Shown: piece after piece, positions 2,032 through 14,183 of the stretch
Layout: every line of letters starts with the position of its first letter
How positions within the stretch are numbered: the stretch's first letter is position 1
Source of the DNA: an uncultured Porphyromonadaceae bacterium
GTDB lineage: Bacteria > Bacteroidota > Bacteroidia > Bacteroidales > Muribaculaceae
Length of the DNA: 14,183 nt
Direction of reading: 5' to 3'
Assembly (NCBI GenBank): GCA_905193995.1
Contig: CAJJQT010000019.1
Location: 1-14,183 of the forward strand
Program-made: the position numbers and the translations under genes
The notes under the pieces: model-generated
Database searches by the model: none
Told to the model about the DNA's origin: nothing
The model's input: the letters and a program-made list of their open reading frames with translations, nothing else

Positions 2032-4998
2032 TCATTTCACCACGACCTTGGCGACTGTGTTGCCCTGACGCCGGATGTACAGGCCGGGAGCGAATTCGCC
2101 CTCGACGCGCACGCCCTGCAGATTGTAGTATTCAGTCTCGGCTGATGCGTCGGCGTCGATGCCGTCGATGTAGCCGGGCTTATCCTTGCCCATTACCGAC
2201 ACTTCCTTGAGCTTGATGCCCCAGGTCGGTTCGTAAGCGGCCTTGGTGTCGATGCGCACGTAGCGGGTCGAGTGACCTTCGCCTTCAACAGCAAACAGAC
2301 GGCGTGCGGTGACGCCTGCGCCGCCGATGCCGGCGGTCTCGGTCATGGTGTACTCACCGGTCGAGGGAGCGCGGAACACGGTCTCTTCCGGAGCGCCGCC
2401 CGACATCAGGGTGACGGTGTACTCCTTGGCGCTGGCGCCTTCCCATACAAGCTCTACGGCCTCTACGATCTTGTCGCTGCCAAGGTCGATGACTGCGTAG
2501 TGCTCCTGAGTCTCGGCACACGACCATTCGATCTGGGTTCCTTCGTTGCCGTCGACAATGAGGCTGTAGTCGATGCCGTCGACGTCGCCGGTGACGGTGC
2601 CTCCGAGAGCCTTCGAGTCGGCCGAAACGACGCAGGCCATGTCAACCGTGGCGGTCAGGTCGCCGCAGGTGGCGGTGATGGTGGCGCTGCCCTTGTCGGC
2701 GGCTGTCACGTAGAAACCTTCGACGCCGAATGCGGCCGAATTGCTGGTCAGAGTCACGTCGCGGCCGAATACATAGTGGCCGGCGGCGTCGCGGAGTACG
2801 ACGGTGGCAGGTACGGTCTCGGCGACCTTGAGCGAGGTCTTGGGCAGCATGATCTCGATGGCTGCGGGTTCGCCAACCTCAACGGGCGAGTTTTCCTGCC
2901 CGACAGTGTACTGGTTGTTGAGCGAGCCGATGTTGGTGTTGCCGCCGTCGGCATAGATGATGTCGAACGTGAACCAGGCCATGCGGTCGCCTTCCTCGTA
3001 AGTACCGGTGGTGGTGAAAGTTGCCTTCTCGTATGTACCTTCCATGGCCACGTGGTCGGGCTGGTTGTCGCGGCGGGGTTCGCCTACGGCCACGATGTTG
3101 GGAGCCACCATCCCGGTGACGGGCTTCTCCGTGATCACCGAAGCGGTGAAGGTGATGGTCATGTCGGGGTTATAGGAGGCCTCGACGTCGATGCTGACAG
3201 GCAGCGAGCGCTTGTCGGCGGGAGTCTCGTCTGTGTAGTAGGCGTTGGCGATCATGCCGTCGGCACGGCCGTGCCATACGGCGGCTGTCGCGCCGTCGCG
3301 GATGGTGCGGAACTTCACTACGGCCTCATTGCTCTCGTAGTCGGTGCCGGCGATGTTGGCGACAGCCTTCAGGGTATAGGTGTACTCGGTCGACGGGGTC
3401 AGGCCGGTGAGCACGACGGGATTCTCGGTGACGAGGGCGCCGTTGCAGAGCACGGCGACTTCGGTACCGTCGAATTCGCTGCTTGCGCGCAGCATGTAGG
3501 CTATCGACGCGCCGGTGGCGGTGATGTCGCCGGCCGATGCAGTCAGACGCAGCGTCGGCGTTGCCACAGGCTTGTCGTTCGAGGCGCCGAATACGTAGCC
3601 GGCTATGGCCGGGCCTACCACGCCGCCGGGATATTCAAGCCAGAAATGCAGGGCATCGAAAGCCTTGCCGAGTTCGAAAGTCGCGGTGTTGTCTGTAGTG
3701 CCCTTCCAGCATTCGGCAGCCTCGTCGTAGGTCAGTTCCATGTATTTGTCGTAGCCGACGCTCTGCGAGAAGACGTGCAGCTTGTGGCCGCATTCGAGGC
3801 CGTCGGTACCCTCGAAAGTGGCTTCGACGCTCAGTGTGCCGTCCTCGTTGGCAGTCAGCGCGTAGCTGACGGTGATATTGTACTCCTTGCCCTCGCGCGA
3901 GGCTGTGGCCTCGGCCGAGCCGTACCATACACCGCCGTAGGCGGGCTTGACGGCGTTCGGATCCTTGTAGAAATAGACGTTGGCGATGAAGCACTCGGCA
4001 CCGGTGTTGCCCTGGTCGAACTTCACCTGGAAGACGTCGGCGAAATTGACGGTCGTCCAGTGCGACAGGGGTACGTCATAGCTGTTCCATTCGCCGACCT
4101 TAACCTCGGGAGCCACCCAGGGGCCTTCGTTGCCCGGGCTGATGGGCGTGAAGCCGAAGTTGGTGGCGCTCACGGGATAGAAGTCGACATGCATGTAGTC
4201 GCATTCGCTGACGTCGATATGCTGTGCGAGCTCCCAGCCCAGATAGTTGAAATTGCGCAGATGCGCCACGGGAGCGCCACCGTCGGAGGTCAGCGACTCA
4301 AACTGCGTCGACTGGCCCCAGCCGCCGATGCCGAAGGTGGTGGCAGCTGCGTACTTGCCGCTCAGCAGCGACACCACGTCAGCCGCGTCGGCTGCCGGTA
4401 CGGGAGGTTCCGGGCAGAAGCGCACGATCTCGGGCTTCGTCCAGCTTTCGTCGGTGTTGGTGTAGACCACATCGTCGACATACAGTTTCGTGTCAGCCGT
4501 GAAGTTCTCCACTATCAGACCCAGGAGGCAGTCGTTGGCGCCGAACTGCTTGTATTCCTTCCACTGGGCGGCCACGGCTGCGAAATCGTCAGTCACACTG
4601 TACGAGGCGGTTAGCCACTTGTTTACATCCGCATCAGTGACGGTTATCACCTGCTGCGCGTTGTCCTGCGACCCGAGCTGCACGGTCACCTTGCAGGGCG
4701 TCGTCGCATAGTACCTGAACGACAGGCCGGCCGAATGCAGGGGGCCGGAGATAGCGTTGCCGTCGTCGGCGGGCTGGAAGCCCATGCAGAAGTTCCCTTC
4801 GAGAGTCCCGCCGTTGGTAAGTTCGAACACGGCACCTTCGCCGTCAGGATTGGCGGCGGTCGCGTTCATCGCGCAGTTCCACCATTGGTTGGCGTTGACG
4901 CTCGGGGCCACCACACCGTTCTGATACACGATGTAGTCGGCGGCTGAGGCCGTCAGCGCAGCCGCTGCGGCAACTGCTGTTAATAATACTTTTTTCAT
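2032..4998 (-). CDS. Large multidomain secreted glycan-binding-like protein with C-terminal sorting-type tail
   Basis: This 988-residue protein starts with a signal peptide (1 to about 19, cleavage near A-S-A-A; no lipobox). Visible modules: a beta-sandwich at about 21-180 ending in L-Y-V-D-D-V-V-Y; a second at about 205-346 with Trp/Tyr-rich strands and the ending N-V-Y-F-Y, a pattern of carbohydrate-binding jelly rolls; an unknown module at about 353-470 opening with G-V-W-Y-G; an FN3-like module at about 478-567; a likely second copy of the unknown module at about 570-705 opening with A-V-W-H-G; a Big-like Ig fold at about 711-791; an F5/8 type C-like (discoidin, CBM32-like) domain at about 793-938; and a 35-residue tail (954-988) with Y-Y-N-L-Q-G-V-R-V and G-L-Y-I-R-R-Q-G. 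No glycosidase domain is recognised. It is the last gene of the operon, 30 bp after the GH128 gene. I infer a surface protein that holds beta-glucan; direct evidence is only domain shape. An uncharacterised enzyme is an alternative. Confidence 0.72.
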   Translation of the reverse strand: MKKVLLTAVAAAAALTASAADYIVYQNGVVAPSVNANQWWNCAMNATAANPDGEGAVFELTNGGTLEGNFCMGFQPADDGNAISGPLHSAGLSFRYYATTPCKVTVQLGSQDNAQQVITVTDADVNKWLTASYSVTDDFAAVAAQWKEYKQFGANDCLLGLIVENFTADTKLYVDDVVYTNTDESWTKPEIVRFCPEPPVPAADAADVVSLLSGKYAAATTFGIGGWGQSTQFESLTSDGGAPVAHLRNFNYLGWELAQHIDVSECDYMHVDFYPVSATNFGFTPISPGNEGPWVAPEVKVGEWNSYDVPLSHWTTVNFADVFQVKFDQGNTGAECFIANVYFYKDPNAVKPAYGGVWYGSAEATASREGKEYNITVSYALTANEDGTLSVEATFEGTDGLECGHKLHVFSQSVGYDKYMELTYDEAAECWKGTTDNTATFELGKAFDALHFWLEYPGGVVGPAIAGYVFGASNDKPVATPTLRLTASAGDITATGASIAYMLRASSEFDGTEVAVLCNGALVTENPVVLTGLTPSTEYTYTLKAVANIAGTDYESNEAVVKFRTIRDGATAAVWHGRADGMIANAYYTDETPADKRSLPVSIDVEASYNPDMTITFTASVITEKPVTGMVAPNIVAVGEPRRDNQPDHVAMEGTYEKATFTTTGTYEEGDRMAWFTFDIIYADGGNTNIGSLNNQYTVGQENSPVEVGEPAAIEIMLPKTSLKVAETVPATVVLRDAAGHYVFGRDVTLTSNSAAFGVEGFYVTAADKGSATITATCGDLTATVDMACVVSADSKALGGTVTGDVDGIDYSLIVDGNEGTQIEWSCAETQEHYAVIDLGSDKIVEAVELVWEGASAKEYTVTLMSGGAPEETVFRAPSTGEYTMTETAGIGGAGVTARRLFAVEGEGHSTRYVRIDTKAAYEPTWGIKLKEVSVMGKDKPGYIDGIDADASAETEYYNLQGVRVEGEFAPGLYIRRQGNTVAKVVVK

Positions 4999-5028
4999 GT
5001 CTGTATTTAAGATTGGTTAAATAAATTC

Positions 5029-6489
5029 TTACCTTACGAGAATCTTCGAGGCCGCATTGCCCTGCCGGCGTATATACAGGCCGGGAGCGAGGCCGGCGGC
5101 CGGATCGACGCGGCGCCCGTCGAGGGTATAGACGGCTCCGTCGGTAATGTCGGCAGTGGTATCGGCGGCGATGTCCTCAACACCGTTCTTGGCGTCGAGG
5201 CGCACGGTCGATATGCGGATGCCGCTCGGCTGGTACTGGCGGCCGTCGAAGAGGCGCAGCCGGCGATGGCCGGCCTTGAGCGTGAGGTCAAACGCCTGGG
5301 TGGTGTACACGGCATCGTCGCCCGAAAGAGCGAACGTGACGGGTTCGGCCAGCACGGTGACCATGTCGCTCTCGACGAGCGACACGCCCAGCGACGGGTC
5401 GAAGCGCACGGGCTCGCCCTCGCCGCTGACGGTCAGTTTCAGCTCATAGACGCCGTCGGCCGGCACGTCGAACTGATAGTCGACATACGCGCCGGCGTTG
5501 AACTGCGTGATCTCGATGGGCAGCGGGCAGTCGGGGTTATTGCCCTTACCGAGGCCCAGGATCGACTGGTCGACATAGTCGGCGGCGGCCAGGTCGGTAC
5601 CGGTCGGGTTCCAGCGCTCGAGGTCGAAGTCGCTCATATAGGTGTAGACGTAGCCCTGAGGCGACAGATGACGTTCGCCCAGGCCGTTTTCGGTGATGAT
5701 CAGTCCGTAGCAGGGCGATCCCGACGTTGGGGTGTTCTCATGCTTGCCCACGGCCTTGAACCAGGCGTAGCGGTAGATCCAGGGAGTCTGCTCGAGCCAC
5801 TGCACCGTCTCGATCATCGAGGCGATCTGGACTGCGGGCTCCACGCGCGAGTCGGCCTGCCCCTCGTTGGGCCACAGGCAGAACTCGGTCACCCACACGG
5901 GCTTGCCGTACCTCTCGTGGAAAGCGGTGGCAAGTGTTTTCATCCCACCCAGGCCGCCGTAGTTGTGCACCGCCACGTAGTCGAAGGCGTCCGTGCCCAC
6001 GAGAGCCACGAATTCATCCATCCAGCGCAGCGGATCGGTATAGGGCGGATTGGGCGAGTAGTTCAGCGCCGGAGCCACAAGTTCCAGGCCCAGCTCGTCG
6101 GCCAGCGCCTTCACATCGGCCCACTTCTGGGCGGCCGCCTGGGGCGTCATGTTGGCCTGGGCCGTGAAGTTGGGCTCGTTGAAGCCTAAGAGGTACTTGC
6201 AGCCGGGATGCGACTTCGCATATGCGCGGATGGCGTCGGCATTGTAGTTGGCGTTCCAGCACATGGGGACGAATTCCATGCCCTCGTAGTTCTCGACCTG
6301 GCTCTGGTAGCCCTTCGTGGGCGCGTTGCCCCAGTTGTAGTACCAGCCCACTCCGGGCGCGAGGATTTCGAGCTGCGTCGCCAGCGCGAACTGGTTCTCG
6401 CTTACGCCGCGCTTGCTGCTGCGGGCCTGAGCCGGCCCTGCGGCAAGCAGGACTCCGGCGACGAGGATATATAATGCGGTTTTTTTCAT
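5029..6489 (-). CDS. GH128-like endo-beta-1,3-glucanase with C-terminal beta-sandwich and sorting-type tail
   Basis: The protein is 486 residues. The start chosen is 6489 (M-K-K-T-A-L-Y), which gives a proper signal peptide (1-22, cleavage after A-Q-A). An upstream in-frame Met at 6576 would add 29 residues of low quality that overlap the GH3 gene, so it is rejected. Residues about 30-295 match the Asl1-like/GH128 TIM-barrel family: L-L-G-F-N-E-P-N (101-107) holds the likely acid/base Glu105, and V-W-V-T-E-F (198-203) the likely nucleophile Glu202. V-A-V-H-N-Y (172-177) and the Trp/Tyr-rich W-I-Y-R-Y-A-W-F (237-244) are also typical. GH128 enzymes cut beta-1,3-glucan internally. Residues about 320-432 form a beta-sandwich resembling CBM6-type modules. 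The last ~35 residues (V-Y-T-L-D-G-R-R-V ... G-L-Y-I-R-R-Q-G) are a sorting-type tail. The gene starts 1 bp after the GH3 stop (TAA-G-ATG), indicating tight coupling. It probably acts at the cell surface. Confidence 0.87.
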   Translation of the reverse strand: MKKTALYILVAGVLLAAGPAQARSSKRGVSENQFALATQLEILAPGVGWYYNWGNAPTKGYQSQVENYEGMEFVPMCWNANYNADAIRAYAKSHPGCKYLLGFNEPNFTAQANMTPQAAAQKWADVKALADELGLELVAPALNYSPNPPYTDPLRWMDEFVALVGTDAFDYVAVHNYGGLGGMKTLATAFHERYGKPVWVTEFCLWPNEGQADSRVEPAVQIASMIETVQWLEQTPWIYRYAWFKAVGKHENTPTSGSPCYGLIITENGLGERHLSPQGYVYTYMSDFDLERWNPTGTDLAAADYVDQSILGLGKGNNPDCPLPIEITQFNAGAYVDYQFDVPADGVYELKLTVSGEGEPVRFDPSLGVSLVESDMVTVLAEPVTFALSGDDAVYTTQAFDLTLKAGHRRLRLFDGRQYQPSGIRISTVRLDAKNGVEDIAADTTADITDGAVYTLDGRRVDPAAGLAPGLYIRRQGNAASKILVR

Positions 6490-6490
6490 C

Positions 6491-8713
6491 TTATTCTGTG
6501 ATTTTGAATGATACGGGATCGGCGGTCGTGGCCGACGAGTTGTCGACCCACAGGTGGAAGTCGCCCGGCTCCACACGGTAGGCGCCGGTCTCGTCGTGGA
6601 AGCCCAGGTCTGCGGCGGCGAGTGTGAAGGTCACGTCGCGGCTCTCGCCCGGGGCGAGCGTGAATTTCTCGAAGCCCTTCATCACCTTCAGAGGCTGTAC
6701 GCGCGAGGCCACGAGGTCACGGATGTAGAGCTGGGCCACGTCGCTGCCGGCGCGGTCGCCCGTATTGGTCACGCGGCAGGTCACCGTCAGCGTGCCGTCG
6801 GCTTTGAGCTCGGAGGAGCTAAGCTCCGGTGTGCCGTACTCGAAAGTGGTGTACGACAGGCCGTAGCCGAAGGGGAACAGAGGCTGATAGCCGGCATCGA
6901 GGAAGAACGAGGTGCAGCCCGTCGATGTCTGGCCCGCTTCGAGAGGTATGTCATCGATGAGCGTCATCTGCTCGACGGGGCGCCCGGTGTTCTTGCGCGA
7001 ATAGTAGAGGGGCTCCTGGCCGCTCATGCGCGGCAGGCACACGGGCAGCTTGCCGCCGGGCACCGCACGGCCGCTGAGCACGTTGGCCAGCGCCGGACCG
7101 CCCATCGTGCCGGGATGGAAGGTGTATACCGTGGCTGCGCTCTGCGATGCCACATCGGGGATAGCCAGCGGGCGCCCGGCCATGACCACGGTCACGACGG
7201 GCTTGCCGGTGGCGGTCAGTGCGGCCAGATATTCTTTCTGGGCGCCGGGCAGCGTGATGTCGGCACGCGAGTGGGCCTCGCCCGACAACACGGCTTCTTC
7301 GCCGGCGAAGTACAGGATGACGTCGGCATCGGCAGCGGCGGCCACGGCGGCCGCGAAGCCGTCGGTCGAGCGGTCGCGCGAGTAGGCCAGGCCCGGCAAG
7401 TAGACCACGGCGTCGCCGTACATCTCGCGCAGGGCCGCCAGCGGAGTCACGGTGCGGTCCTTCTCCATATCGAACGACCATGTACCGTTCTGGTCATGCC
7501 GGGCGTCGGCCATAGGACCCGTCACCAGAATGCGGTGCGGCTGCCGGAGCGGGAGCACGCCGTCGTTGGTCAGCAGTACGGTGGCTTCCTCTGCGGTCAC
7601 GCGCGCGGCCTCCAGGGCCTCGGGCGAATAGAAGTCGTTGGCCCGGGCCATGTCGACGTATGGATTGTCGAACAGACCCAGACGCATCTTCAGGCGCAGT
7701 ACGTTGCGCACCATGCCGTCGAGTACGCTCATCGGCACCTGCCCCGACTCCACGAGCTCGGCCAGATGCGACAGGTAGGCGTGACCCTCCATGTCAATAT
7801 CGACACCGGCCAGTGCAGCGGCGCGCGCCGCGTCGCTGCGGTCGGCGCTGTAGCCGTGGTTGATCATCTCGGTGATCGAATTCCAGTCACTCACCACCAA
7901 GCCGTCCCAGCCCCACTTCTTGCGCAGCAGTTCGCGCATCAGGTAGGCATTCGCCGACGAGGGCAGGCCGTTGATGTCGTTGAACGAGCACATGAACGTG
8001 GCTGCCCCGGCGTCGGCCCCGGCCTTGAAAGGCGGCAGATATACGTCGTGGAGCAGCGACATCGGTATCCAGGTCGTGTTGTAGTCGCGGCCGCTCTCGG
8101 CGGCGCCGTAGCAGGCAAAATGCTTCACGCAGGCTGCCATAGTGCCGGGCTTCGACAGATCGTCGCCCTGATAGCCTCGCACGGCCGCCACACCCATCGC
8201 CGAGGTCAGCACCGGATCTTCGCCGTAGCCTTCGGCGATGCGGCCCCAGCGGGCGTCGCGGGCTATGTCGACCATCGGCGAGAACGTCCAGCGCACGCCC
8301 GCCGACGCTGCCTCACGGGCCGCGATCGCGCTCCCGCGCTCGACGAGCGACGGATTCCACGTTGCTCCCTGGCCCAGCGGAATCGGGAAAATGGTGCGGA
8401 ATCCGTGGATCACGTCGCGGGCGAACACCAGGGGGATTCCCAGACGCGAATTCTCCACCGCCTCTTTCTGCAGGCAGTTGACGGTCTCCGGATCGACTTC
8501 GTTGAGCAGCGAACCTACTTCGCCGCGGCGGACGGCTTCGACCATGTAATCGGTGTAGCCGACGCCCGAGAGCTGGTTGAGCTGCCCTATCTTCTCGGCG
8601 AGCGTCATCGACGATACAAGCTCGTCGACGCGGGCTTCCTGTGCCGGCGTGAGCGCTGCCGACACCTGTGCGGCCGCCAGCATCGCGGCGGCTATGAGCC
8701 TGTGTATTTTCAT
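6491..8713 (-). CDS. GH3 beta-glucosidase (BglX-like), periplasmic
   Basis: This 740-residue protein has the normal length and layout of BglX-type GH3 enzymes. A signal peptide (1-19, cleavage V-S-A-A) has no lipobox, so it is predicted periplasmic. The TIM-barrel domain (about 25-355) has R-W-G-R-I-A-E-G-Y-G-E-D-P (155-167), K-H-F (197-199) and G-L-V-V-S-D-W-N-S (271-279), where Asp276 is the expected nucleophile. The alpha/beta sandwich (about 365-595) has G-E-E-A-V-L-S-G-E-A-H-S-R (471-483), in which Glu479 is the likely acid/base. A fibronectin-III-like domain (about 610-735) follows F-P-F-G-Y-G-L-S-Y. The expected reaction is removal of terminal beta-glucosyl residues from imported gluco-oligosaccharides, giving glucose. 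The start codon overlaps the stop of the GH16 lipoprotein gene by 4 bases (ATGA), a sign of translational coupling. Linkage preference cannot be read from sequence, but GH16 and GH128 neighbours suggest beta-1,3-linked substrates. Confidence 0.94.
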   Translation of the reverse strand: MKIHRLIAAAMLAAAQVSAALTPAQEARVDELVSSMTLAEKIGQLNQLSGVGYTDYMVEAVRRGEVGSLLNEVDPETVNCLQKEAVENSRLGIPLVFARDVIHGFRTIFPIPLGQGATWNPSLVERGSAIAAREAASAGVRWTFSPMVDIARDARWGRIAEGYGEDPVLTSAMGVAAVRGYQGDDLSKPGTMAACVKHFACYGAAESGRDYNTTWIPMSLLHDVYLPPFKAGADAGAATFMCSFNDINGLPSSANAYLMRELLRKKWGWDGLVVSDWNSITEMINHGYSADRSDAARAAALAGVDIDMEGHAYLSHLAELVESGQVPMSVLDGMVRNVLRLKMRLGLFDNPYVDMARANDFYSPEALEAARVTAEEATVLLTNDGVLPLRQPHRILVTGPMADARHDQNGTWSFDMEKDRTVTPLAALREMYGDAVVYLPGLAYSRDRSTDGFAAAVAAAADADVILYFAGEEAVLSGEAHSRADITLPGAQKEYLAALTATGKPVVTVVMAGRPLAIPDVASQSAATVYTFHPGTMGGPALANVLSGRAVPGGKLPVCLPRMSGQEPLYYSRKNTGRPVEQMTLIDDIPLEAGQTSTGCTSFFLDAGYQPLFPFGYGLSYTTFEYGTPELSSSELKADGTLTVTCRVTNTGDRAGSDVAQLYIRDLVASRVQPLKVMKGFEKFTLAPGESRDVTFTLAAADLGFHDETGAYRVEPGDFHLWVDNSSATTADPVSFKITE

Positions 8714-9597
8714 TTCTCTGTGATTAGTTGGTTGTTCGGTAGATATATTCGTATGTAGTCGACGTACATCGACGCCTCGTCCTCCGGGTCGAGCGCCGTC
8801 ACGGCCGCCGGATCGTGGATGCCGGTGAAATCGCCGCCGACTGCCAGGTTGAGCAGTATGAAGTTGGGCTTGTGGAAGTAATAGCCCGGCGACGCGGGAT
8901 TGTCGCGGTCGCTGATGTCGACCGACAGATAAGGCGCCTCGACCTCGTCGACATACATGTTGATGGCCTCAGGCGTCCACACCAGGTAGAACCGGTGGTA
9001 CCGCCCGTCCTGGAGGCTGACCGGGCTGCTTCCCACGCCGACCTGCTGCACATGCTCGCCGGTGCCGTAGTGCAGGGCGCCGTTGAACAGGCGCGACTGC
9101 TTGCCGGCCGCTATGCCGTCGGCATGGCCCATCTCGAGCAGGTCGGTCTCGCCGCAGAGGGGCCAACCGTTATCGTCGATATCGGAGCCCATGAACCATA
9201 TCGCCGGCCACAGGCCGTCGGCCGTCGACGGCAGCTTCACGGAACATTCCACGATGCCGTAGGTGAAGTCGAACTTGCCGAGCGTGTTAAGCCGCCCCGA
9301 CGTGAAGGCGTGGTTGCCGAACTCGCGGCGCCGGGCCGTGATGACCAGGTTGCCGCCCGACAGCGACACGTTCTCGGGCGAGTCGACATAGTGCTCGAGT
9401 TCGTTGTTGCCGCAGCCCGAGCCGTTGATCTCGACATTCCACACGCTGCGGTCGAGCGAGTCGCCCTCGAATTCCTCCGACCATACCAGCGACACTCCCG
9501 ACGGATCGGCCGTGAACTGCCGCGAGGGTTTCGGCATCTGGGCGCACGCCGCAAGCGCGGCTGCAGCCAGGGTCGTTGTTATGACGATTTTTCTCAT
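8710..9597 (-). CDS. GH16 endo-beta-glucanase (laminarinase-like), lipoprotein
   Basis: This 295-residue protein begins with a lipoprotein signal: the lipobox L-A-A-C places the acylated Cys at residue 18. The GH16 concanavalin-like jelly roll spans about 33-287. The catalytic signature G-E-T-D-L-L-E-M is at 149-156, with nucleophile Glu150, assisting Asp152 and acid/base Glu155 in the E-x-D-x-x-E form used by laminarinase and licheninase members. D-G-L-W-P-A-I-W (127-134) upstream is also typical. It should cut beta-1,3 bonds inside laminarin-like or beta-1,3/1,4-glucans, attached to a membrane by lipid. It ends right after the catalytic domain with no binding module and no sorting tail, unlike its upstream paralogue. 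Over the 52 residues around the active site the two GH16 proteins are identical at 34 positions (about 65%), so they are probably a tandem duplication followed by different anchoring. It is spaced 14 bp from the upstream GH16 gene and overlaps the GH3 start by 4 bases. Confidence 0.93.
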   Translation of the reverse strand: MRKIVITTTLAAAALAACAQMPKPSRQFTADPSGVSLVWSEEFEGDSLDRSVWNVEINGSGCGNNELEHYVDSPENVSLSGGNLVITARRREFGNHAFTSGRLNTLGKFDFTYGIVECSVKLPSTADGLWPAIWFMGSDIDDNGWPLCGETDLLEMGHADGIAAGKQSRLFNGALHYGTGEHVQQVGVGSSPVSLQDGRYHRFYLVWTPEAINMYVDEVEAPYLSVDISDRDNPASPGYYFHKPNFILLNLAVGGDFTGIHDPAAVTALDPEDEASMYVDYIRIYLPNNQLITEK

Positions 9598-9611
9598 CTC
9601 TGCCCTTCTGA

Positions 9612-10769
9612 TTATCTGATTACGGTTTTAAGGGTCGAGCCGCCCGCGGCTATCACGTATATGCCGGGACTGAGACCTGCGAGGTCGAGCCTGTCGCCCT
9701 CGCCGAAGGCCACCGGACGCCCAGTAGCGTCGTAGACGGCTATCGAGGCGGCGCCGGGCGCTGTGACGATGCCGCCACGCAGCGCTATCTGCGTGCGGTC
9801 GGCCGATACGTCGGCTACCGATGCCTCGTCGCCGGGAACGATCGTGTAGAGGTCTTCGTCGGCCGTACCCTTCTGATACACCTTCACATAGTTGACATAC
9901 ATCGAGGCCTCGTTGCCGTTGGCGTCGTTGAGCGCCGTGATGTTCCCGGCCTCGTGGATACCGGTGAAATCGCCGCCCACGGCCATATTGAAGATGATGA
10001 AGTTGAGCTTATGGAAGTAGTTGCCCGGCGACCACTCGTTGCCGGGATCGTCGTGCGTGATTCCCATGCGGAAATAGGGCGTCTGCACCGGCTGGCGGTC
10101 AAGGTCGACGTACATGCGCATCTCGTTCTCGTCCCATACGGCCGTGAAGAGATGGAACTCGCCGTCCTGCAGCGAATAACTCTTGGTAGTCGCCCTGGCG
10201 TACGACCCTGCCGGCCACCCCTGGCCCCAGTGCATGGCGCCGTTGAAGTAGCGGTCCTGGGTACCGTTGCGGATGCCGTCGGCGTTACCCATCTCGAGAA
10301 TATCGGTCTCGCCGGATTTCGGCCAGCCTACCTCGCCGTAGTCGTTACCCATCATCCAGAAAGCCGGCCACAGGCCGTCGGCAGTCGGCGGCAGCTTTAT
10401 CGATGCCTCTACCTTGCCGTGGGTGAACGCTACCTTGTCGCGCGAGTTCACGCGCCCCGACGTGAACTGCCGCCCGCCGAGATTCTCGCGCCGCGCCGTC
10501 AGTATCAGGCAGCCGTTGCCCTGGCCGTCATCGCCCACGCGCACGTTTTCTTCACGGTCGGCGTAGTACTGCAGCTCGTGGTTTCCGCCGCCGTTGGCGT
10601 TCTGCTCCACGTTCCAGCGCAGGTCGTTCAGTATGCCGTTGTCGAACAGATCCTGCCACACCAGCCGGTAGCCGTCGGTCTCGCCCGACCCTTCCTGGGG
10701 TTCGGCGCACATGGCCGCCGGTATTGCGGCCGCTCCCGCCAGCATCATGGTCAATATTCTGAATTTCAT
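9612..10769 (-). CDS. GH16 endo-beta-glucanase (laminarinase-like) with C-terminal sorting-type tail
   Basis: This 385-residue protein has a signal peptide (1 to about 22, probable cleavage A-M-C-A before E-P). The Cys at 21 is not in a good lipobox (A-A-M-C), so I predict signal peptidase I processing. The GH16 domain covers about 34-300, with D-G-L-W-P-A-F-W (131-138) and G-E-T-D-I-L-E-M (153-160): Glu154 nucleophile, Asp156, Glu159 acid/base. The role is endo-cleavage of beta-1,3 or mixed-linkage glucan. After a short linker, residues about 318-385 form a small beta-rich domain with the pattern I-A-V-Y-D-A-T-G-R-P-V, then L-S-P-G-I-Y-V-I and K-T-V-I-R. This resembles type A C-terminal sorting domains of type IX secretion more closely than the shorter tails elsewhere in the locus. 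It lies 316 bp downstream of the glycan-binding gene and 14 bp upstream of its GH16 paralogue. It is probably secreted or surface-attached. Confidence 0.93.
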   Translation of the reverse strand: MKFRILTMMLAGAAAIPAAMCAEPQEGSGETDGYRLVWQDLFDNGILNDLRWNVEQNANGGGNHELQYYADREENVRVGDDGQGNGCLILTARRENLGGRQFTSGRVNSRDKVAFTHGKVEASIKLPPTADGLWPAFWMMGNDYGEVGWPKSGETDILEMGNADGIRNGTQDRYFNGAMHWGQGWPAGSYARATTKSYSLQDGEFHLFTAVWDENEMRMYVDLDRQPVQTPYFRMGITHDDPGNEWSPGNYFHKLNFIIFNMAVGGDFTGIHEAGNITALNDANGNEASMYVNYVKVYQKGTADEDLYTIVPGDEASVADVSADRTQIALRGGIVTAPGAASIAVYDATGRPVAFGEGDRLDLAGLSPGIYVIAAGGSTLKTVIR

Positions 10770-11085
10770 TTCTTTATATCGTTTAAATTATTGTCAAAAT
10801 TAAGTGGTTGACCTGCCCGGAGCAGAGTCGTTGAGTGCCTGCCGCCGCCCGCATTCGGGCTGCAGCCGATGTAATAAATGGTGGCGCCGTGCGGACCGTA
10901 CGGCCCCGTTCGAAAAAAGTAATAAACCTAAAAACAACCGTTCGTGCCTCAGGCAATCATGCCTTTCGGGCGCCGTTGCTGCCAAGGCCGGCGCAGCCTG
11001 CGGGGTAATGTGTCTTTCATGAAATGGGGGCGGCCACCCTTCGCCGGGCCGCCGCCCCGGGGTCAGTTAGAAATCTATGGAATTG
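10770..11085. other. 316-bp intergenic stretch between glycan-binding gene and GH16 gene
   Basis: No credible coding sequence is seen here; the short open frames have no family features. Read in the operon direction (minus) it begins with a GC-rich hairpin (11027-11058) after the upstream stop, passes through a mixed region with a small GCCCG/CGGGC hairpin (10847-10860) and a T-rich patch (10913-10930), and ends with an AT-rich leader of about 30 bp before the GH16 start. It is far longer than the 1-30 bp gaps elsewhere in the downstream genes, so an internal promoter or a 5'-UTR element for the enzyme block is possible, but no convincing -33/-7 Bacteroidetes promoter was found. Confidence 0.5.
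11027..11058 (-). terminator. GC-rich hairpin after the glycan-binding gene
   Basis: GGGGCGGC and GCCGCCCC (8 bp, 11027-11034 with 11051-11058) pair, continue after a G-G mismatch with four more pairs, and enclose a 6-base loop. It lies 27 bp after the stop of the 287-residue gene. No U-tract follows on the minus strand, so it may be a partial terminator or an mRNA 3'-end stabiliser that lowers expression of the downstream enzymes, not a full stop. Confidence 0.5.
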
Positions 11086-11949
11086 TTACTTTACGGTCAC
11101 TTTGCTGACGCTGCTGCCCTTGCGCACGATGTACAGGCCGGGGGCGAGCTCGCCGTCGACGCGCACGCCCTGCAGATTGAAGTATTCGGCGGGAGCGTTT
11201 TCGTCGTTCAGTTCCAGATCATCGACACCGTTGTTGGCGTAGTTGTAGAAGTAAACGGCGTCGAAAGCGATGGTCTGGCCGGTGACACCGCCGCAGAGGA
11301 ACGACATGATGTTGCCCGTCCAGCCTGCGGCAGCGCTGTAGTTGAAGCCCTTGAAGATCTTCTTCAGGTCGCCGAAGCTGATGTCGATCGCCTGCCAGTC
11401 GTCCGAGCTGGTGGTGCCGATGCTGGGGAAGGCGGTGCCGTTGTCGTTGAAGGCGGCGCCGAGCGATACCTTTGCAGGACCGTAGGCCGTGTTGCCGTCG
11501 GGGCCGTCGGCGATGATCAGCCCTACCGAGGGGCAGACGGTGCCGGGCGACATGTAAGCCAGGTGGAAGCGGGTCTCGTCATTCCAGTTCGAGGAGTTGA
11601 AGCCGGGGGCGGCCACGTTGTAGCCTGCGCCCGACCAGCCGATCGTGCCGACCGAGAACGATGCATAGCCGTCGAAGTGCATGCCTACGCCGGGATAGCT
11701 GCTGTCGCCGGCTCCGAACGTGTTGTCCCATACCCACAGGTTCTGGGTCTCGCCGTTGGGACCTACAAGCGTGGTGGTGGCGCCCTGGTCCTGGAAGGCC
11801 TTGACCGATGCCTCGTCGAGTGCGATATACTGCACTTCAGCGACTTTGCCTTTGGCGAGGACGGTTTCGACGGTCGGGTCGACGTTGTACTGTGCGGATG
11901 CCGTCATGCCGGCTGCGCATGCTAATGCTACAAGAGTAAACTTTTTCAT
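11086..11949 (-). CDS. Secreted beta-sandwich protein in the surface glycan-binding position, with sorting-type tail
   Basis: This 287-residue protein has a signal peptide (1-19, cleavage A-S-A before Q) and no lipobox. Residues about 21-240 look like one beta-rich domain with many aromatic residues (W-V-W at 72-74, G-W-S-G at 104-107, W at 122 and 185). It ends in F-D-A-V-Y-F-Y-N (229-236), the closing strand pattern of carbohydrate-binding jelly rolls. A 34-residue tail (254-287: E-Y-F-N-L-Q-G-V-R-V, then G-L-Y-I-V-R-K-G) follows. The gene lies directly after susD, where PULs usually encode a surface glycan-binding (SusE/SGBP) protein. Those are normally lipoproteins, so this one would reach or hold the surface by another route. 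I recognise no named family; the glucan-binding role rests on position and fold style. It is separated from susD by 141 bp containing a hairpin. Confidence 0.75.
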   Translation of the reverse strand: MKKFTLVALACAAGMTASAQYNVDPTVETVLAKGKVAEVQYIALDEASVKAFQDQGATTTLVGPNGETQNLWVWDNTFGAGDSSYPGVGMHFDGYASFSVGTIGWSGAGYNVAAPGFNSSNWNDETRFHLAYMSPGTVCPSVGLIIADGPDGNTAYGPAKVSLGAAFNDNGTAFPSIGTTSSDDWQAIDISFGDLKKIFKGFNYSAAAGWTGNIMSFLCGGVTGQTIAFDAVYFYNYANNGVDDLELNDENAPAEYFNLQGVRVDGELAPGLYIVRKGSSVSKVTVK

Positions 11950-12090: not shown

Positions 12091-13695
12091 TCAGTATCCG
12101 GGATTCTGAGCCATGGGGTTGAGGTTGATTTCTTCCGACGGGATCGGGAACAGCTCGTTCTTACCCTTGACGAAGTTGGCCATCTCGGCGCGGGCTTCTT
12201 CGGTCTCGCCGCGGCCGTACGAGCCGTTGTCGCGGTCCATCACCTCGTAGGCGATGCCCCAGCGCACCAGGTCGAACCATCGGTGGCCTTCCATGGCCAG
12301 CTCTACGCGGCGCTCGTGGCGCAGGGCCGCGCGCAGGCCGTCCGCAGTGTCGGCGTAGCCGTAGCCGGGGAAGTCGGGCAGACACGGAGTGTTGACCATG
12401 GCGCGGGCTCGGCCGCGCACCTCGTTCAGGGCCCACTTGGCCGCCGTGAGGTCCTTGCCGCTCTCGAGGCACGCCTCGGCGTAGAGCAGCAGGGCGTCGG
12501 AGGCGCGCATCAGCCTGTAGTTCATCGGCGAGCGCGAGTCATGAGCCAGTGCCGGGAACTCCATGCCTTCGTCGTACGAGTTCTTGCGGTTGAAGTATGA
12601 GCTGCCCAGGTAGTTGACCTCGACTTCCTGCGACACTTCGTCGTCGAAGCTGCCGATGGTCAGCTCGCGGCGCGGATCGTTGGGCTCGTATTCGGCGTAG
12701 AGGTTGTGGGTCGGATGGTCGAAGCCCCAGCCGCGCTTGCCGCCCAGAACGGACGCGCGCGGGCGGCAGAGGATCGTGGTAAACGTGCCGCGGGTGAATC
12801 CGAAGCCCCCGATGGCAGCGTCGCCGTAGTCGCTGGTCGGGTCTTCCATGTACTGGATCTCGAACACGCTCTCCGCCGAGTTCTCGCCGGCCAGCCTAAA
12901 GTTCATGCCGTAGTCGCTCAGCAGCGAGTACTGGCTGCCGTACTGCTCGTCGGCCCATTTCTTGCCCCAGAGGTAGGCGTTGTCGTAGTCTTTCATATAC
13001 AGGTAGGCCTTGCACAGGAATGCCTGCGCGGCGCCTCGGGTGGCGCGGCCGAGATCCTCGGCCGAGTATACCGACTTGTCCCACAGCAGCCCTTCGGCCA
13101 GCTTCAGGTCGGCGACTATGTGCTCGTACACTTCCTCGACCGTGGCGCGGGGCTGGATCCAGCGCTCGCTCGAGTCGATCACGAAGTCGACCAGCGGCAC
13201 GCCGCCGAACACGCGAACGAGCTGGAAATAGTAGACCGCGCGCAGGAAGTAGGCTTCGCCCATCAGGCAGTCGCGGCGCGAGTCGGTCATCGAGTCGTCG
13301 GGATCGACCTGCGGGATCTGCTGCAGAGCCAGGTTACAGCGGGCTATGCCCTGGTATTTGGCACGGTAGTAGTCGAGCAGAAGGCCGTTGTTGATGTTGG
13401 TCTTGAAGTTGTCGATGTCGTAGGCGTTGCTGTCATCGGTCACGTTCTGGCCGCCCTTGAGGGCGTCGTCCGACGCGATGTCGCCGATATACCACTCCGA
13501 AAAGTACGTATGGTTGTATTCCCACGCCAGCGGTGTGTAGCAGGCGTTCACCGACTGGATGGCTACGGCTCCGCTGATAAAGAAGTCGTCGAGCTTGTTC
13601 GTGCCGGGACCATCCTCCTTGAGCCAGTCGTTGCACGAGGTGAGCGACATGGCAGCCGCCGCGGCCGCGAGCACTGCTTTATATGCTGTTTTCAT
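12091..13695 (-). CDS. susD: SusD/RagB-family outer-membrane glycan-binding lipoprotein
   Basis: This 534-residue protein has normal SusD length. The lipoprotein signal has lipobox L-T-S-C with Cys21 as the acylated residue. Family hallmarks are clear: G-E-A-Y-F-L-R-A-V-Y-Y-F-Q-L-V-R (146-161) leading to F-G-G-V-P-L; A-L-R-H-E-R-R-V-E-L-A-M-E-G-H-R-W-F-D-L (457-476); and the C-terminal end L-F-P-I-P-S-E-E-I-N-L-N-P ... Q-N-P-G-Y. The TPR scaffold with N- and C-terminal SusD domains is expected. SusD proteins cap the SusC barrel at the cell surface and bind the glycan before import. It follows susC by 14 bp, the standard pair arrangement. The symbol names the family, not the starch-specific protein: the neighbouring GH16, GH128 and GH3 genes indicate beta-glucan, not starch. 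Start is the Met before the signal peptide at 13695. Confidence 0.96.
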   Translation of the reverse strand: MKTAYKAVLAAAAAAMSLTSCNDWLKEDGPGTNKLDDFFISGAVAIQSVNACYTPLAWEYNHTYFSEWYIGDIASDDALKGGQNVTDDSNAYDIDNFKTNINNGLLLDYYRAKYQGIARCNLALQQIPQVDPDDSMTDSRRDCLMGEAYFLRAVYYFQLVRVFGGVPLVDFVIDSSERWIQPRATVEEVYEHIVADLKLAEGLLWDKSVYSAEDLGRATRGAAQAFLCKAYLYMKDYDNAYLWGKKWADEQYGSQYSLLSDYGMNFRLAGENSAESVFEIQYMEDPTSDYGDAAIGGFGFTRGTFTTILCRPRASVLGGKRGWGFDHPTHNLYAEYEPNDPRRELTIGSFDDEVSQEVEVNYLGSSYFNRKNSYDEGMEFPALAHDSRSPMNYRLMRASDALLLYAEACLESGKDLTAAKWALNEVRGRARAMVNTPCLPDFPGYGYADTADGLRAALRHERRVELAMEGHRWFDLVRWGIAYEVMDRDNGSYGRGETEEARAEMANFVKGKNELFPIPSEEINLNPMAQNPGY

Positions 13696-13709: not shown

Positions 13710-14183
13710 TTAGTATGTGATGTTTACACCGAAGATGAATGTACGCGACTGGGGGTAGTTGCCGTAGTCCACGCCCGAGCTAACCTCGGGGTCGAAGCCC
13801 TTGTACTTGGTGATGGTGAACAGATTGCCGCCCTGCAGGTAGAACCGGCAGTTGCTCAGTCCGGCCTTCATGATCAGTTTCTTCGGGATGGTGTAGCCGA
13901 TCTGCAGGTTCTTCAGGCGGAAGTACGAGCCGCTTTCGAGGAAGCGGTCGCTCGTGTAGTAGTTGATCGAGTTGCGCGGGTTGGGGATCGAGCCTTCGGG
14001 ATTGTCGGCCGTCCAGGCGTCGGCCATGATCGGCGACACTACCGATTCGGAGCCGCTGCCCTCGAGCTTGTGGCGCATCTGGTTGTAGATCTTGTTGCCG
14101 CCCACGCCCTGGAAGAAGATGGACAGGTCTATGCCCTTCCACTCGGCGCCGATGGTCAGGCCGTAGTTGAGGCATGGAATCGA
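13710..14183 (-). CDS. susC: SusC/RagA-family TonB-dependent transporter, C-terminal 157 residues (partial)
   Basis: The minus-strand frame is open from the window edge to the TAA at 13710-13712. A Met inside it (14105) could be mistaken for a start, but the frame continues upstream with G-L-T-I-G-A-E-W-K-G-I-D-L-S-I-F-F-Q-G-V-G-G-N-K-I, a very typical SusC stretch. Next come L-K-N-L-Q-I-G-Y-T-I-P-K, R-F-Y-L-Q-G-G-N-L-F-T-I-T-K-Y-K-G-F-D-P-E, and the end Y-P-Q-S-R-T-F-I-F-G-V-N-I-T-Y, with an aromatic last residue as usual for outer-membrane barrels. SusC forms the 22-strand TonB-energised channel that imports oligosaccharides captured by SusD. Only the last strands are here; plug and carboxypeptidase-like N-terminal domain lie beyond the window, as probably do the operon promoter and regulator. 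Confidence 0.95.
   Translation of the reverse strand, partial: SIPCLNYGLTIGAEWKGIDLSIFFQGVGGNKIYNQMRHKLEGSGSESVVSPIMADAWTADNPEGSIPNPRNSINYYTSDRFLESGSYFRLKNLQIGYTIPKKLIMKAGLSNCRFYLQGGNLFTITKYKGFDPEVSSGVDYGNYPQSRTFIFGVNITY

Follow-up and report, generated by a model that had tools for sequence, protein, structure and literature searches.

The stretch of DNA analysed here (the window; 14,183 nt, positions 1 to 14,183 of contig CAJJQT010000019.1, assembly GCA_905193995.1) derives from an uncultured Porphyromonadaceae bacterium (Muribaculaceae) and carries a polysaccharide utilisation locus (PUL), four of whose products end in C-terminal tails. These tails are of two classes, three being short and one long, and, judging from sequence comparison, both classes very probably act as C-terminal signals of the type IX secretion system (T9SS). 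The best explanation, in which high confidence is placed, would be a beta-glucan PUL of Muribaculaceae type with two export routes, T9SS serving the tailed proteins.

C-terminal tails of the locus proteins

Tails were identified at the extreme C-termini of the 988-, 486-, 385- and 287-residue proteins (p988, GH128, GH16B and p287, respectively; Table 1). This agrees with the original prediction, which had also held that the glycoside hydrolase (GH) 16 lipoprotein (GH16A), GH3 and SusD have no tail. Profile searches and a motif test both confirm the four tails, the motif test being positive for these proteins and negative for GH3, GH16A and SusD. The background of this test is 58 of 4900 shuffled C-termini (1.2%), and it is also passed by 17 of 419 other six-frame open reading frames (ORFs) of the loci, possibly including real tailed genes. 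The C-termini of p988 (GIDADASAETEYYNLQGVRVEGEFAPGLYIRRQGNTVAKVVVK), p287 (GVDDLELNDENAPAEYFNLQGVRVDGELAPGLYIVRKGSSVSKVTVK) and GH128 (GVEDIAADTTADITDGAVYTLDGRRVDPAAGLAPGLYIRRQGNAASKILVR) were matched up to the final one or two residues by a short-tail model built without rows from the window, and GH16B was matched by a model of the long type A tails of its relatives (E-values over the seven window proteins, Table 1). The four tails had been predicted to be related: they do share motifs but are not of one kind, those of p988, GH128 and p287 being short (43-51 residues) and that of GH16B long and type A-like.

Motifs B (Y-x-L-x-G), D (G-x-Y-I/V) and E (K/R) are present as in the type A C-terminal domain (CTD), and in the short tails of the window the gaps between them are short, as in the short signals of Prevotella intermedia. 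AlphaFold models the tail of p287 as a small unit of strands following a low-confidence linker at residues 242-247; the unit consists of three strands of at least three residues and one two-residue bridge, and does not form a seven-stranded Ig-like sandwich. No T9SS CTD appears in the VIA rows for p287, but these span residues 30-240 and the tail lies outside them. Comparison of the short-tail profile with solved structures gave nothing significant, the best hit being a beta-helix protein (PDB accession no. 7jvi, E 0.23). The 847-residue chain of 7jvi carries a YNLQG stretch (VYNLQGQRV...GIIITNGKK) near its end, which seems to be a tail retained in the construct.

A single genome scan with GH128 yielded 21 related loci, in assemblies titled Muribaculaceae, Muribaculum, Bacteroidales, Porphyromonadaceae, Bacteroides or Prevotella-type. 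Closed ORFs were assigned by best hit, open-ended ORFs were excluded and split genes were counted twice. On this tally the tail motif is present in 59/63 members of the tailed families (GH128 19/21, GH16B 19/20, p287 16/17 and p988 5/5, some of the last matching over part of the protein only) versus 0/34 members of the untailed ones (GH3 0/15, GH16A 0/3, SusD 0/16), and all four misses belong to a single locus, L019. The proposal that the tails sort the products of the locus thus holds among its relatives. The split genes are GH3 in L021 (5469-7702) and SusD in L010 (3735-5362), each in two ORFs through mutation or assembly error.

Relatives of p287 carry either a short tail or an ordinary type A domain, and TIGR04183 matches 39/40 of the long-tailed but 0/20 of the short-tailed ones. 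A tree of the p287 body with 116 rows (22 short-tailed, 94 long-tailed; truncated rows P0008, P0049, P0110 and P0118 excluded) implies six changes of tail class, at least two of them forced by strong branches. Alignment of the short and long tail profiles gave a probability of 96% (E 2.4e-9), with motifs matching motifs. Of 42 short-tailed rows, 34 have a G[I/V] motif resembling a cleavage site, at 42-51 residues (median 45) from motif to end. Across eight genomes, at E 0.01, the short-tail model gave 143 matches and TIGR04183 gave 151 (not all above its cut-off); four places were common to both, as read from the two lists, that of TIGR04183 lacking at least one row.

T9SS genes and the distribution of short tails

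A search for T9SS homologues had been suggested, and it found SprA above the cut-off in 21/21 related genomes, PorU above the cut-off in 20/21 (G001 having pieces below it) and PorV with at least 399.9 bits in 20/21 (only 153 bits in G010). A gene of the PorV family, scoring about 145-189 bits, occurs alongside the 400-bit PorV in 20/21 related genomes (G001-G021) and is the sole one in G010; it may be PorQ or a further shuttle.

Of 295 genomes drawn evenly from the order Bacteroidales, 280 matched SprA, 279 of them above the cut-off. The 15 genomes lacking any SprA match formed the group without SprA; G240, whose SprA match falls below the cut-off, was assigned to neither group. At E 0.01 the short-tail model matched in 21/21 related genomes, 21/43 other SprA-positive genomes and 0/15 genomes without SprA (21/43 versus 0/15, Fisher p 4e-4, kinship ignored). 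The searches for PorU and PorV covered 12 of these 15 (all but G104, G136 and G274), and PorU was above the cut-off in none of the 12.

T9SS export combined with SusCD import, as originally proposed, is supported because tails are exchanged within the p287 family, T9SS genes are present in the relatives, short tails are absent from the 15 genomes without SprA and the sorting is conserved. The following scheme for export, cleavage, anchoring and enzyme roles is what we infer. Sec would carry p988, GH128, GH16B and p287 over the inner membrane, and at the SprA translocon the T9SS shuttle PorV would recognise their C-terminal signals. PorU would probably cleave within the flexible linker at G-[I/V], removing the tail, and anchor the protein on the cell surface. 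Outside the cell, p287, which resembles a carbohydrate-binding module (CBM), and p988 would bind glucan, and GH16B and GH128 would cut it. The fragments would be imported by SusD/SusC and finished in the periplasm by GH3, perhaps together with the lipoprotein GH16A.

Several observations weigh against this scheme. In the suggested comparison of the tails with CTD models, p988, GH128 and p287 match neither TIGR04183 nor PF18962, and GH16B matches both only below the cut-off (TIGR04183, 17.8 bits against a curated cut-off of 23 bits, which no tail reaches). The G[I/V] motif is missing from 8/42 short-tailed rows, seven of which have S-A-[I/V]. The short tail is missing from 22/43 of the other SprA-positive genomes and from G240 despite the presence of PorU and PorV there, and PorV-family matches above the cut-off (163-264 bits) occur in 4/12 genomes without SprA. 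The short-tail model was made from Muribaculaceae-like sequences, so its silence in genomes without SprA may partly reflect ancestry. Among tailed ORFs from other genomes, L100_0 has no clear signal peptide and L096 starts in a lipobox-like manner. T9SS genes were identified in most of the related genomes tested, and the scheme presumes them in that of the window; cleavage, surface location and PorV binding of the window tails are predictions.

The failure of TIGR04183 and PF18962 to recognise the short tails, and their absence from those SprA-positive genomes, would also suit a sorting or anchoring signal independent of T9SS and used in place of its domain. Yet the short and long profiles are similar motif by motif, the two kinds are exchanged inside one protein family (p287) and no match was found in the genomes without SprA. 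Moreover, the short signals of P. intermedia are described, in the available part of the report (PMC11969387), as cleaved and glycosylated like the long ones. A separate signal is thus judged very unlikely. The related suggestion that the short Y-N-L-Q-G tails might be an undescribed class is not supported, as the P. intermedia signals in that source have the same length and motifs.

Among 118 Muribaculaceae genomes, PorU was above the cut-off in 118 and the short tail was matched in 113, with 2208 matches in total (median 17 and maximum 64 per genome, some partial). In 20 regions fetched around the best-scoring matches the tail lies 0-1 residues before the stop codon and each protein has a signal-peptide-like start. 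Such a start, called in relatives by a hydrophobicity script and not by SignalP, was found in 20/21 tailed ORFs of the fetched regions, some of which also list weaker internal tail-like stretches. These counts bear on the reading of the tails as mere remnants of an export domain, with the proteins remaining periplasmic. The short tails are indeed without the opening strands of the type A fold; remnants, however, would hardly persist in such number, the matches checked are terminal, and the short signals of P. intermedia are functional in the part of PMC11969387 that covers them. This reading is the least probable of those considered here.

A second PorU-like gene (PorU2) was identified in clusters of the order porU-rex-fah-porU2-porV-ispF, not all parts of which occur in every genome (rex, fah and ispF were named by eye, not by family search). 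The order porU-rex-fah-porU2-porU2 is not universal in 10 genomes, G323 having neither rex nor fah and G352 no fah. Second, and also third and fourth, PorU-like genes stand behind porU at L025 5751-9113, L033 6108-9503 and in L183-L192, mostly with rex and fah between. A sortase PorU2 dedicated to the short tails is suggested by the position of its gene near porU and porV, by the retention of the conserved His and Cys columns in 17/17 sequences and by the tail counts: tails are more numerous where PorU is matched twice than where it is matched once (median 24, n=67, versus 9, n=35; p=1e-7), as is also seen for one versus two or more (p=4e-5), kinship being ignored in both comparisons. Against this, the 35/118 genomes with one PorU match include some with 32-46 tail matches, so that PorU2 is not required for short tails, and genomes with three (n=12) or four (n=4) PorU matches have few (medians 8 and 3.5). 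PorU2 also forms one old clade, so the counts are not independent, and the PorU numbers are match counts that may include fragments. PorU2 as the required short-tail sortase was rejected on these grounds, and a dedicated role is considered more improbable still than a separate signal.

Exchange of tails for dockerins

What a specialist would not expect is the exchange of tails for dockerins. In L019 the relatives of p287 (3191-4102), GH16B (5687-8878) and GH128 (9959-11458) possess a C-terminal dockerin (PF00404, above the cut-off) instead of a tail; the locus also contains another GH16, which has the tail motif, and another GH128-type gene, which lacks a dockerin and any clear tail. The L019 genome contains 38 dockerin matches versus 0-2 in each of the other 20 related genomes, and gave no match to the cohesin family PF00963. 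Relatives of the dockerin form of p287 are widespread, one being named as from Sodaliphilus pleomorphus (among 120 listed of 332). In 159 proteins with a match to the p287 body, a tail was found with a signal peptide in 115 and with a cut start in eight, and a dockerin with a signal peptide and in terminal position in 28, with a cut start in one and with a lipobox-like start in one. Two tailless proteins have a lipobox (P0160, P0161), and four with a signal peptide have neither a tail nor a terminal dockerin: P0039 is missed by the tail motif test, P0110 has an unrelated end, and P0152 (by scan) and P0153 (by listed Pfam) have an internal dockerin.

Stretches of four genomes with three or four PorU matches (800 kb) contained 19 C-terminal dockerins, of which 15 belong to ORFs whose start is signal-like, and none were found in 800 kb sampled from four genomes with one or two; the stretches were not random, being consecutive pieces of one contig for three of the four dockerin-bearing genomes, with densities of 7 to 62 per Mb. 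Mutual exclusion of dockerin and tail was seen throughout the 1.6 Mb sampled but failed as a rule with L184 15293-17290 and with P0213 and relatives of that protein. The L184 protein (G352), encoded directly behind a PorU2 gene, consists of leucine-rich repeats, a dockerin, a further domain and a short tail; for the further domain, a cohesin fold is known only from a model of the similar P0213.

Cohesin family PF00963 was not found in G019, G018, G020 and G004. With a custom cohesin-like model, about 1.0 Mb from genomes rich in dockerins or with three or four PorU matches yielded one ORF (G352), and the remaining stretches, about 1.1 Mb, yielded none; the tail motif was failed by the 19 listed P0213 relatives with a precomputed PF00963 match. 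Cohesin as a general docking partner was rejected, as neither search showed a tailed cohesin in most dockerin-rich genomes. It is possible, though rather doubtful, that the C-terminal dockerins on PUL enzymes from Sodaliphilus-type Muribaculaceae functionally replace T9SS tails, either as a new T9SS signal for sorting or attachment, served by the additional PorU2 sortases of those genomes, or by docking the enzymes onto surface proteins exported via T9SS and having a cohesin domain ahead of a short tail. In either form, if true, the "cellulosomal" dockerins of rumen Bacteroidota would belong to T9SS surface display. In 2020 the function of PUL dockerins in rumen Bacteroidetes was described as undefined, in the part of PMC7480376 that treats it, and the exchange of tail and dockerin offers a direct handle on this function in rumen Bacteroidota.

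Locus layout and comparison with known systems

The PUL genes all lie on the minus strand, in the reading order SusC 3' end, SusD, p287, GH16B, GH16A, GH3, GH128 and p988 (Table 1). The locus is of Sus type, with an adjoining SusC-SusD pair (SusC only partly inside the window) and glycoside hydrolases. N-terminal Sec signal peptides, as expected of T9SS cargo, were read from the sequences of the tailed proteins. PF11790, matched by GH128, is taken by us to be family GH128. p988 is probably a surface glycan-binding protein, and GH3 is predicted to be periplasmic. Acidic residues after the lipobox cysteine mark surface lipoproteins (lipoprotein export signal, LES) in the species treated in the available part of PMC5080379. 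The lipobox of GH16A has no such residues, so this protein may face the periplasm. A Sel1-repeat protein (PF08238; 322-1839, plus strand) adjoins the PUL and has no known link to it.

Table 1. Genes of the PUL and their C-terminal tails in the window
Feature	Position	Strand	Remarks
p988	2032-4998	-	988 aa; F5/8 type C-like domain above Pfam cut-off, weak Fn3; signal peptide by eye; tailed
Short T9SS-type tail of p988	2035-2163	-	last 43 aa, from G-I; E 4e-21
GH128-type enzyme	5029-6489	-	486 aa; PF11790, 1.9e-52; tailed
Short T9SS-type tail of GH128	5032-5184	-	last 51 aa, from G-V; E 3e-9
GH3, beta-glucosidase-like	6491-8713	-	signal peptide by eye; no tail
GH16A	8710-9597	-	lipobox LAAC then AQMPKPS (no acidic surface-export motif); no tail
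GH16B	9612-10769	-	385 aa; tailed
Long type A-like tail of GH16B	9615-9833	-	about 73 aa, start by eye; E 3e-11
p287	11086-11949	-	287 aa; CBM30/CBM11-like beta-sandwich; signal peptide by eye; tailed
Short T9SS-type tail of p287	11089-11229	-	last 47 aa, from G-V; E 1e-19
SusD-like lipoprotein	12091-13695	-	SC-NDWLKED, acidic start after cysteine; no tail
SusC/RagA 3' end, cut by window	13710-14183	-	TIGR04056, 169 bits, positions 822-980 of 981

The occurrence of short and long T9SS signals within one PUL is well supported, the short class having been described in 2025 in another family. The GH16B tail is of the type A kind (TIGR04183, PF18962; RgpB CTD, 5hfs and 7pq4), which is likewise C-terminal and shares the motifs of the second half; in contrast, the other three tails are without the first half of this domain and gain no score. 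Surface glycan-binding lipoproteins of Bacteroides PULs are SusE/F and the surface glycan-binding proteins (SGBPs). A PUL paper on Chitinophaga reportedly mentions T9SS (PMC10449523). The SusE/F and SGBP lipoproteins carry a lipid anchor and an N-terminal export signal (LES, as described in part of PMC5080379), unlike the tailed window proteins with their C-terminal T9SS-type signal. Short T9SS signals were reported in P. intermedia (Ye et al., 2025), where cleavage was measured, and this is called, in the available part of the report, the only species with both kinds (PMC11969387). Its short CTDs resemble the window tails in length (40-51 residues from cleavage site to end, against 43, 47 and 51), in the motifs Y-x-L-x-G, G-x-Y-I and K, in a G-I-type cleavage site and in forming one small beta sheet, in the window on the p287 model only. 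The window tails differ in being of Muribaculaceae type, with a Y-[YF]-N-L-Q-G signature, in being family-wide, located on PUL proteins and swapped with long tails between relatives, and in that their cleavage site is a predicted one.

The C-terminal dockerins of L019 on relatives of three window proteins resemble those of PUL enzymes of rumen Bacteroidetes (in the parts available of PMC7480376 and, for Sodaliphilus, PMC10872696), from which the window proteins differ in carrying tails. A complete T9SS in 22 S24-7 genomes, with 161 TIGR04183 proteins, was described in 2016 (PMC4936053, in part available), and T9SS-borne carbohydrate-active enzymes are described for one rumen member of the Bacteroidales without PULs in the available part of PMC5831590. 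A limited literature search found no report of short T9SS signals in Muribaculaceae.

The Muribaculaceae count among the major families of the mammalian gut. Should the short tails be T9SS signals, nearly all such cargo escapes the curated TIGR04183 model, and many PUL enzymes and binding proteins of the family would arrive at the cell surface via T9SS and not as lipoproteins.

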